Shown piece by piece: positions 38,574 to 41,054 of a DNA stretch of 51,754 nt. The notes below the pieces were generated by a model, which searched no databases, was not told where the DNA came from, and worked only from the letters and a program-made list of their open reading frames with translations. The stretch spans positions 1 through 51,754 of the forward strand of contig CACJEG010000005.1 in the NCBI GenBank assembly GCA_902592375.1. Direction: 5' to 3'. The position numbers and the translations under genes were made by a program. The DNA is from an uncultured Pelagibacteraceae bacterium. GTDB taxonomy: Bacteria > Pseudomonadota > Alphaproteobacteria > Pelagibacterales > Pelagibacteraceae. Numbering within the stretch: position 1 is the first letter of the stretch; each line of letters opens with the position of its first letter.

Positions 38574-40348
38574 TAATATACTCGCTCTTGTGGTGGAAAA
38601 TATTGAACTTCATTTGTTAAAGTTGATTTGTGTACTGCTCTGTAACTAATTTTTGTATTTTTTCCATCACACCAAGCAAGAGTATGTTGCATAAACTTTT
38701 CGTCATCTCTTTTTGGATAGTCATCTCTCGCGTGAGCTCCTCTGCTCTCTTTTCTATGATATGCAGATTCTACAGTAGTTACTGCTTGTCTTATTAAATT
38801 ATCAAATTCTAATGTTTCAACTAAATCAGTATTAAATACTAAAGACCTATCTTTAACTGAAATTGAGTCCATACCATCATAGGTTTTTTTAATCTCATTA
38901 ACGCCTTCTTTAAGATTTTTTTCTGTTCTAAAAACTGCACATTTCGACTGCATCGTTTTTTGCATTGAAAGTCTAAGTTCAGCAGTACTATTATTTCCTT
39001 GTGCATTTCTAAGTTTATCAAATCTATCTAAACATTTTTGTGTTTCTGACTCAGGAATTTCCTCGTGAGGTGTACCTGGCTTAACTAATTCAGCTGCTCT
39101 TTTTGCTGCTGCTCTTCCAAATACTACTAAATCAATTAAAGAATTAGAACCAAGTCTATTTGCTCCGTGAACAGAGACACATGCCGCCTCTCCTATAGCC
39201 ATTAAACCTGGAACAGTTTTTTCTGAGCCATTTACAGTTAATACTTCTGCTTTATAGTTTGTTGGAATACCACCCATATTATAATGAACTGTTGGTACAA
39301 CAGGAATTGGTTCTTTAGTTACATCTACATTTGCAAATAATCTTGCTGCATCAGTAATTCCAGGAAGCCTGCTTTCAATAATATCTTTATCTAAGTGACT
39401 TAGGTTCAAATGAACATGATCTTGATCTTTTCCAACTCCTCTTCCCTCATTAATCTCAATAGACATAGATCTGCTAACAACATCTCTTGATGCTAGATCT
39501 TTTGCATTTGGAGCATATCTTTCCATAAATCTTTCACCTTTAGAATTTGTAAGATAACCCCCTTCTCCTCGCGCACCTTCTGTTATTAATGTGCCGTGGC
39601 CATAAATTCCTGTTGGGTGAAATTGAACAAACTCCATATCCTGAAGCGGCAGTCCAGCTCTTAAAACCATTGCATTACCATCACCAGTGCAAGTATGTGC
39701 TGATGTTGCTGAATAATAAACTTTTCCATAACCACCTGTAGCAATAATTACTGTGTGCGCTCTAAATCTATGAATTGTGCCATCATTCAAATTCCAAGCA
39801 ATTAGACCTTTGCATTCCCCATTCTTCATCAACAAATCTAATGCAAAATATTCTATAAAAAATTCTGTATTATGTTTTAACGCTTGTCCATATAATGTGT
39901 GTAAAATAGCATGTCCTGTTCTATCAGCTGCTGCACAAGTTCTTTGGACTATTCCATTTCCATAATTTTTTGTCATTCCACCAAATGGTCTTTGATAAAT
40001 TTTTCCCTCTTCAGTTCTACTAAATGGAACTCCATATTTCTCCAATTCTAAAACCGCTTTAGGTGCTTCTTTACAAAGGTATTCAATACTATCTTGATCA
40101 CCTAACCAATCTGCACCTTTGACAGTATCATACATGTGCCATCTCCAATCATCTTCTCCCATATTTCCTAATGCTGCTGATATTCCACCTTGTGCAGCTG
40201 ATGTATGACTTCTGGTAGGAAATACTTTTGAGATACAAGCTGTTTTTAAGCCAGCTTCACTAAGCCCTACTGCCGCTCTTAAACCTGATCCACCAGCACC
40301 AAGTACAACAACATCGTACTCATGGTCTATAATATTATATGCTTTCAT
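38573..40348 (-). CDS. sdhA: Succinate dehydrogenase flavoprotein subunit
   Basis: 591 residues. Oxidises succinate to fumarate. FAD motif VVLGAGGSGLRAAVGLSEAG (about 14-33), covalent FAD attachment at His48 in PTRSHTSAAQGGI, substrate-site segments FVQFHPTGIYGHGTLITEGA and HVHLNLSHLD, and VHGANRLGSNSLIDLVVFGR. C-terminal HxxESRGAHARDDYPKRDD (HRKESRGAHARDD here) carries catalytic arginine. Normal length; overlaps sdhD by four bases and sdhB by one. Confidence 0.98.
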   Translation of the reverse strand: MKAYNIIDHEYDVVVLGAGGSGLRAAVGLSEAGLKTACISKVFPTRSHTSAAQGGISAALGNMGEDDWRWHMYDTVKGADWLGDQDSIEYLCKEAPKAVLELEKYGVPFSRTEEGKIYQRPFGGMTKNYGNGIVQRTCAAADRTGHAILHTLYGQALKHNTEFFIEYFALDLLMKNGECKGLIAWNLNDGTIHRFRAHTVIIATGGYGKVYYSATSAHTCTGDGNAMVLRAGLPLQDMEFVQFHPTGIYGHGTLITEGARGEGGYLTNSKGERFMERYAPNAKDLASRDVVSRSMSIEINEGRGVGKDQDHVHLNLSHLDKDIIESRLPGITDAARLFANVDVTKEPIPVVPTVHYNMGGIPTNYKAEVLTVNGSEKTVPGLMAIGEAACVSVHGANRLGSNSLIDLVVFGRAAAKRAAELVKPGTPHEEIPESETQKCLDRFDKLRNAQGNNSTAELRLSMQKTMQSKCAVFRTEKNLKEGVNEIKKTYDGMDSISVKDRSLVFNTDLVETLEFDNLIRQAVTTVESAYHRKESRGAHARDDYPKRDDEKFMQHTLAWCDGKNTKISYRAVHKSTLTNEVQYFPPQERVY

Positions 40349-40674
40349 GTATTTAAGTTAAAAATTACAATTATTGTAATTACTGGAATTGTTATAGCAA
40401 AAAAATTTAGTACTTTGTTTGCGGCATTTTTGGTTTTTTTATCGTTAATATAGTCTTCAAAAACCTCACTTATAGTCAAAGCTGAAAAAAAATAAGCAAT
40501 TACTAAAAATAATCCAATTAGGAATTTAGATGGTTGTGTTGTTAAAAAATTCACTATTTCAAAATAACTTTTATCATAGATATTTACTAAATTTATAATA
40601 AACCAAAGCATTAAAGGTAATAAGATTGCGGAACTAATTTTTAAGAATAACCATTTTTTTGTTACTGGAAGCAT
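40345..40674 (-). CDS. sdhD: Succinate dehydrogenase membrane anchor subunit SdhD, lacking the heme histidine
   Basis: 109 residues, three membrane helices (about 8-30, 50-70, 87-106). The EDY motif (Asp74-Tyr75, equivalent to E. coli Asp82-Tyr83 of the quinone site) identifies it. The heme b ligand should lie 11 residues before this Asp (E. coli His71), but that position is Phe63, and the whole protein contains no histidine. Together with the Gln at the matching SdhC position this suggests that complex II here has no b-type heme. The ATG overlaps the sdhC stop by one base and the stop overlaps sdhA by four. The identification rests mainly on operon position, topology and the EDY motif. Confidence 0.88.
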   Translation of the reverse strand: MLPVTKKWLFLKISSAILLPLMLWFIINLVNIYDKSYFEIVNFLTTQPSKFLIGLFLVIAYFFSALTISEVFEDYINDKKTKNAANKVLNFFAITIPVITIIVIFNLNT

Positions 40675-41054
40675 TATATTAATCCTCTGCCAATTAAATA
40701 AATTAAGATAGTTAAAACAATCGAACCAAAAATAACTAACAAACCTGTAATTTTTGTTGTTTGTAATTCAAATCCATAACCTAAATCCATAATCAAGTGT
40801 CTTACTTCACTTAACATTTGAAAACTAAATGACCAGGTTATTCCAATTAAAATAAACTTACCTAAAAAAGTTTCTAAAAAAATTTTAATAATTTGATAGT
40901 TACTTTCTCCTAAAAGCATTAATGTAAACCAAATACAAATTAATGTGATCGCAAAAAAATTAATTATTCCTGTAATTCTATGTGAAATAGATACTAATGA
41001 AGAAATATGCCATTTATAAATCTGTATATGTGGTGATAAAGGTCTGTCTTCCAT
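40674..41054 (-). CDS. sdhC: Succinate dehydrogenase cytochrome b556-type subunit SdhC, heme ligand replaced
   Basis: 126 residues, three membrane helices (about 27-49, 62-82, 101-123). The family start RPLSPHIQIYKWHISSLVSI is unmistakable. The quinone-site SISHRITG (Ser22, His25, Arg26) matches E. coli Ser27, His30 and Arg31. The conserved EVRHLIMDLGYG (His86, Asp90) matches E. coli GIRHMMMDFGY. The heme b ligand of E. coli, His84, lies seven residues before the RH histidine, and here that residue is Gln79. The normal axial ligand is therefore missing although the surroundings align without gaps. Four bases from asd; first gene of sdhCDAB. Confidence 0.93.
   Translation of the reverse strand: MEDRPLSPHIQIYKWHISSLVSISHRITGIINFFAITLICIWFTLMLLGESNYQIIKIFLETFLGKFILIGITWSFSFQMLSEVRHLIMDLGYGFELQTTKITGLLVIFGSIVLTILIYLIGRGLI

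Follow-up and report, generated by a model that had tools for sequence, protein, structure and literature searches.

The window, the whole 51,754-nucleotide stretch analysed here, comes from an uncultured Pelagibacteraceae bacterium and carries a succinate dehydrogenase locus on the minus strand, with the gene order sdhC-sdhD-sdhA-sdhB from position 41054 down to 37794. The intact open reading frames sdhC (40674..41054) and sdhD (40345..40674) encode membrane subunits of 126 and 109 amino acids, followed by an intact sdhA for the flavoprotein (38573..40348; 591 amino acids) and an intact sdhB for the iron-sulfur subunit (37794..38573; 259 amino acids). SdhC scores 127.6 bits against the curated equivalog TIGR02970 (succinate dehydrogenase cytochrome b556 family; cut-off, 52.3) and is 98% identical to its nearest named relatives, uncultured Pelagibacteraceae single cells, which marks the genome as SAR11-type. 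SdhD scores 46.4 bits against TIGR02968 (membrane-anchor family; cut-off, 41.8), and both subunits match PF01127 (Sdh_cyt), with 94.6 bits for SdhC and 27.7 for SdhD against a cut-off of 25.8. SdhB is conventional, agreeing with vertebrate enzymes in its cluster cysteines and in the stretches CPSYWW and RCHTI. All of the expected ubiquinone-site residues are present, namely, Ser and Arg in SdhC (Ser22 to Arg26, E. coli Ser27 to Arg31; 40977..40991, minus strand), Asp and Tyr in SdhD (Asp74-Tyr75, E. coli Asp82/Tyr83; 40450..40455, minus strand), and Trp and His in SdhB, which we take to form the quinone site.

Like a type C succinate:quinone oxidoreductase (SQR), the locus encodes two membrane subunits, each modelled with three long helices, in one cluster with the FAD and FeS subunits. 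Searched against Pfam and NCBIfam at the E-value limits applied here, the window's membrane subunits match no FrdC or FrdD family, which sets them apart from class D. A type C enzyme also has one axial heme ligand in each membrane subunit, and here Gln79 of SdhC and Phe63 of SdhD occupy the ligand columns. Because both ligand columns lack His, we refer to the complex as a putative heme-free derivative of type C and not as a type C enzyme in the full sense.

Two other regions of the window deserve mention. At 42069-47341 on the minus strand, genes for a GcvT-like protein, an alpha/beta hydrolase, an acyl-CoA ligase, and an acyl-CoA dehydrogenase stand in a row that, judged by eye, presumably resembles the DMSP demethylation genes dmdA-dmdB-dmdC. 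At 440-2361 on the plus strand, a deoxyhypusine-synthase-like gene, as recognized by eye, adjoins an agmatinase-like gene, in a bacterium.

The register of the ligand positions was established for each subunit. E. coli SdhC (100% match to 1nek_C) reads His84-Val-Val-Val-Gly88-Ile-Arg-His91, and the window SdhC aligns to it without gaps as Gln79-Met-Leu-Ser-Glu83-Val-Arg-His86. As a single query, the window SdhD retrieved no PDB relative up to an E-value of 10, and a 21-sequence SdhD profile matches E. coli SdhD (1nek_D) at 5e-8, in register, equating E. coli His71, Gly75, Asp82, Tyr83, and Arg20 with window Phe63, Thr67, Asp74, Tyr75, and Lys12. These alignments bear out the preliminary description, which had Gln79 in place of the SdhC ligand (codon 40818..40820, minus strand) and Phe63 in place of the SdhD ligand (codon 40486..40488, minus strand) and had counted no histidine anywhere in SdhD, as is indeed the case. 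What that description had not noted is that the glycine at i+4 of each ligand is replaced as well, by Glu83 in SdhC (40806..40808, minus strand) and by Thr67 in SdhD (40474..40476, minus strand). Single-chain folds, predicted without heme, have pLDDT values of 88.6 (SdhC) and 94.1 (SdhD). The top fold match of the SdhC model is E. coli SdhC (E = 2.3e-5) and that of the SdhD model is E. coli SdhD (E = 0.034, probability 1.00, TM 0.72-0.80), with no SdhD match below 0.001. Residue 70 of SdhD (40465-40467, minus strand) is Glu at the position of E. coli Gln78, by the proximal propionate, and Glu stands there in every fetched Pelagibacterales row having that column, including those that keep both His.

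To describe the heme site across relatives, SdhC and SdhD rows were extracted by an HMM-based procedure and coded by four letters, for the SdhC His, SdhC Gly, SdhD His, and SdhD Gly columns, so that a canonical site reads HGHG. Outside the order, HGHG was found in 129/135 rows, a mixed, non-random sample made up of the 30 best-scoring class rows, 23 rows from a search directed chiefly at class genomes with low scores (of 24 fetched, L161 yielded no SdhC), 22 named rows (two of them Gammaproteobacteria by title or name), and 60 picked from the class matches listed, all 60 of which are HGHG. SdhC of L158 and SdhD of L039 are truncated and were still listed. The six other rows are L148 (HDHD), L155 (YSHE), L156 (YGHE), L159 (YTVE), L160 (YEHE), and the truncated L158. 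Genomes lacking an Sdh_cyt match, many of them incomplete, were left out (33/151 in the genus search, 24/197 in the order search, and 54/289 in the class search). Among the genomes of the order search with a completeness of 90% or more and a contamination of 5% or less, 12/149 show no Sdh_cyt match. Only part of the genomes with a match were fetched.

Within the order, the three sister genera (g2, g3, and g4) are HGHG throughout (8/8). The window's genus (g1; n = 118, including the window itself as rows L001 and L002) comprises QEFS (84), QEYS (18), QEFT (7), QEHT (5), and one each of QEHS, HEFS, HEFT, and HENS. The two neighbouring genera comprise HEFT (12) and QEFT (4) in g5 and one of each in g6. 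Since, in the window's genus, the SdhC ligand column is Gln in 115/118 rows and the SdhD ligand column is Phe or Tyr in 111/118, the window's Gln79 and Phe63 are not chance changes. In g1, g5, and g6 together, the SdhC Gly88 column is Glu in 136/136 rows, SdhD Gly75 is kept in 0/136, and both His are kept in 0/136. Protein searches (120 matches listed of 8000 and 120 of 7056) gave only close relatives among the matches listed, with Gln-Glu in 119/120 and Phe at the SdhD ligand column in 119/120, and so contribute little beyond the genus rows. In the second family of the order (f2), genus g8 is HGHG in 4/5 rows (the fifth is truncated), and the others are YCHG (g7; 13 rows), YSHG (g9; 3), and NDHG (g10; 1). 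Of 58 named Pelagibacterales rows (L222-L279), 56 carry the Glu and two are HGHG (L277 and L279, the latter being HIMB114). Joining these 56 to the 136 genus rows gives a 192-row set with 181 distinct SdhC/SdhD pairs, in which SdhC His occurs in 24 rows, SdhD His in 7, and both in none. As this set was chosen by its Glu, only the genus-based 136/136 is an independent count for that column, and some named records may duplicate genomes among the other rows.

The losses are concentrated at the heme site. We considered 26 columns that are at least 85% conserved in 75 rows from outside the order and at least 90% conserved in 10 His-keeping sister rows; seven of them are conserved in less than half of the 192 rows (SdhC 79, 83, and 89; SdhD 12, 15, 63, and 67), and six of these seven are heme-site columns. 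The four non-glycine heme-site losses are both ligands and the columns of E. coli SdhD Arg20 and Ala23, which are described as lying at a heme propionate and near the SdhD ligand (PMC3290573). The SdhD-side glycine is linked to a propionate in the yeast study (PMC13066397), and that of SdhC, counted as heme-facing by pseudo-symmetry with SdhD only, would lie in the equivalent place. Fisher's test gave p = 0.002, or 0.014 leaving the glycines out, values that are soft because the rows form one clade, the columns are linked, and the column thresholds and heme-site list were fixed post hoc. The quinone site shows no such loss, and the preliminary description was right that its residues and the FeS cysteines persist: SdhC Ser22 and Arg26 and SdhD Asp74 and Tyr75 are kept in 192/192 rows. 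Among residues that also contact heme, Arg26 and His86 of SdhC are likewise kept in 192/192 and His25 in 188/192. The SdhD Lys12 column is Lys in 185 rows, Arg in 6, and a gap in 1. At SdhC residue 89, the conserved Trp has become Met in 125/192 rows.

To order these events, a tree was built with IQ-TREE from partial SdhA sequences of 99 rows chosen of 297 with SdhA, among them every row of odd state from the window's genus and from the class set for which SdhA was available. All 57 Glu rows sampled fall on a single branch (support 100/99), and a separate branch holds the HGHG sisters (95/90). Within the Glu clade, HEFT is the state of the early branches, so that by parsimony both glycines and the SdhD ligand appear to have changed on the stem of this clade. 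SdhC His would have given way to Gln later, at least three nested times (in g5, g6, and g1), as read off the tree, on which SdhC His stands isolated in L023, L030, and L200. After pocket closure, probably nothing kept the remaining SdhC His from drifting to Gln. The preliminary description had envisaged a coordinated loss of both ligands, and simultaneous loss is rejected by this stepwise reading, as by the 24 of 192 Glu-bearing rows that still have the SdhC His. In f2, the SdhC motif alone has changed; because the HGHG genus g8 nests within this family (moderate support, 92/81), the number of losses there is uncertain. A tree-based pairing test found only four independent pairs, too few to reach significance.

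Among the outgroup rows, L155, L159, and L160, of the Tyr type, lie on long branches. L155, L156, L159, and L160, all of the same class, combine Tyr at the SdhC ligand with Glu at i+4 in SdhD, the position of yeast Glu112, and probably represent further independent heme losses. L148, with both heme His and Asp at both i+4 glycines, pairs with L156 (YGHE) on a quick tree and is possibly an intermediate or an Asp-tolerant heme pocket.

Heme itself has not been lost from this bacterium, because the same genome encodes a cytochrome b with His99/His113 and His200/His214 at the usual spacing, a ferrochelatase, and COX1; general heme loss is thereby rejected. We take the four cytochrome b histidines to be its heme ligands. 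No second Sdh_cyt pair was found in the genome's assembly (94.66% complete), where the window's two subunits are the only hits. A second Succ_DH_flav_C protein (L366) was considered as part of another complex II and set aside, being presumably AprA-like as judged by eye.

We consider it likely that the window's complex II lacks heme b, the ligands and the i+4 glycines having gone and side chains filling the pocket. This is the heme-free, quinone-reducing enzyme that the preliminary description had proposed, and as a prediction from sequence it is still the best reading, strengthened because the glycines are replaced and yeast offers a precedent. Larger side chains would fill the former heme space in SdhC and SdhD, with Gln79 and Phe63 packing at the former iron site. 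SdhC Glu83 could perhaps form a salt bridge with SdhD Lys12 (40639..40641, minus strand), which stands at the position of E. coli Arg20, a residue that pairs with a heme propionate. The bridge would take the place of the distal propionate and by symmetry would be the mirror image of the yeast Sdh4 Glu112-Sdh3 Arg97 pairing. Electrons would run from succinate to FAD, through three FeS clusters, and on to ubiquinone at the kept SdhB/C/D site, a direct path that could dispense with heme because heme lies off it in E. coli. Where an SdhC Tyr faces an SdhD His (g7, g9, L155, L156, and L160), the reverse of the yeast His-Tyr bridge might form. Against the prediction stand the 24 SdhC and 7 SdhD histidines among the 192 Glu-bearing rows, and L148, which keeps both His though both of its glycines are Asp, so that glycine loss need not mean heme loss.

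If heme is absent, the loss may save iron in an iron-poor ocean, as the preliminary description had proposed, or iron may have had no part in it: a dispensable heme could have gone and the pocket decayed or been replaced for stability, an account that we find about equally easy to credit and to doubt. In E. coli, electrons are reported to reach the quinone directly without passing the heme, and a variant without heme is still active at about half the usual level (PMC3290573); yeast, no organism of the iron-poor ocean, is also reported to have lost it (PMC13066397); and the saving would come to roughly one iron atom in ten for each complex (our arithmetic from the cluster types in PMC10238741). 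Simple decay, however, fits poorly with Glu83 being fixed in 136/136 rows, which suggests selection for a closed pocket. As to habitat, the named His-keeping relatives are two (HIMB114 and a MAG titled DeepCast 200m), too few to test for a link.

Continued binding of heme b, whether through a substitute ligand such as SdhC His25 (E. coli His30) or through the protein matrix by itself, is in our judgment unlikely. To go by the title of Maklashina 2001, certain E. coli mutants in the axial ligands reportedly retain heme, and structures are available for H84M and H71M (2wu2, 2wu5), but each of the latter two changes one ligand, whereas here both ligands and both glycines are replaced, and the window SdhD offers no histidine of its own. 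E. coli His30 is placed about 3.5 Å from a heme pyrrole ring (PMC3290573), and the near-universal His25 and invariant His86, both named by the preliminary description as ligands that would refute its reading, could be read in the same sense; rows in which heme is expected retain His25 too, however, so that its presence tells the two readings apart no better than chance would. That another cofactor, a lipid, or a quinone took over the pocket seems very improbable: in class D E. coli Frd, the heme position is described as occupied by a putative cofactor of unassigned nature (PMC10238741), but Glu83 and Phe63 would crowd the site. Hardly credible is a faulty alignment with the true ligands elsewhere in SdhC and SdhD, for which the divergence of the SdhD membrane sequence, the failed single-sequence search, and the modest E-value of the SdhD fold match might speak, given the in-register profile match and agreement of predicted fold, an Asp-Tyr pair invariant 11 residues after the SdhD ligand column, and sister genera with His in that same column where the window SdhD has none anywhere.

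The predicted absence of heme b from this complex bears on the old open question of what heme b does in complex II, for which related species differing at the heme site (HGHG, HEFT, and QEFS) provide a natural experiment. Yeast and SAR11 share one exchange, made in opposite subunits, which points to a simple sequence rule for spotting heme-free complex II. SAR11 marine bacteria are very abundant, and their heme and iron quotas, if calculated from a textbook complex II, would be slightly wrong. More broadly, we think it reasonably likely that the complex II heme was dropped repeatedly in Alphaproteobacteria by one rule, in which the pocket is closed at the His-x3-Gly motif, often by a carboxylate that replaces the glycine and takes over the propionate salt bridge; that the SAR11 route mirrors that of yeast; that an abundant marine lineage oxidizes succinate with an enzyme that naturally lacks heme; and that the two SAR11 families arrived there independently, from opposite subunits. 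Natural heme loss in SAR11 or alphaproteobacterial complex II is unreported among the open-access titles and abstract beginnings listed in our literature search.

Heme-free complex II as such has already been reported, for yeast, Tetrahymena, and Perkinsus (PMC13066397). For the yeast enzyme (9QDL/9QDM, 9KPS), a cryo-EM map without heme is described, and both map and spectra are reported to show that heme is missing. The ligand His persists in Sdh3, Tyr108 of Sdh4 replaces the other ligand, a His-Tyr hydrogen bond stands in for His-heme-His, and Glu112 of Sdh4, which "replaces a glycine", makes with Sdh3 Arg97 the bond that a propionate would otherwise make (PMC13066397). The window complex shares with it the type C fold, a lost ligand His, an i+4 glycine turned Glu, a kept quinone site, and a lack of heme that is predicted for the window, so that the sequence change seen in yeast recurs in the window in the opposite subunit (Gln79...Glu83 of SdhC against Tyr108...Glu112 of Sdh4). 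The two differ in that heme absence is reported for yeast and predicted for the window, and in that the SAR11 SdhD glycine has become Ser or Thr and most rows of the window's genus lack both His, whereas yeast Sdh3 retains its His. Type C is defined with one bis-ligated heme B, and the yeast authors kept the type C label (PMC13066397).

Mitochondrial complex II of Tetrahymena and Perkinsus is likewise reported without membrane heme (PMC13066397), and in Tetrahymena an additional subunit is described as carrying a c-type haem (PMC10060162); these are divergent eukaryotic complexes whose likeness to the window enzyme is the missing membrane heme predicted for the latter. E. coli fumarate reductase, of class D, is also described as having no integral membrane heme (PMC10238741), but the window subunits differ from it in matching the SdhC and SdhD equivalogs. 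E. coli SdhCDAB, in contrast, is alike in its subunits, its quinone-site residues, and a sequence that aligns in register; the wild type has His84/His71 with Gly88/Gly75 and binds heme, and its heme-free form is man-made (via PMC3290573), whereas that of the window would be natural.
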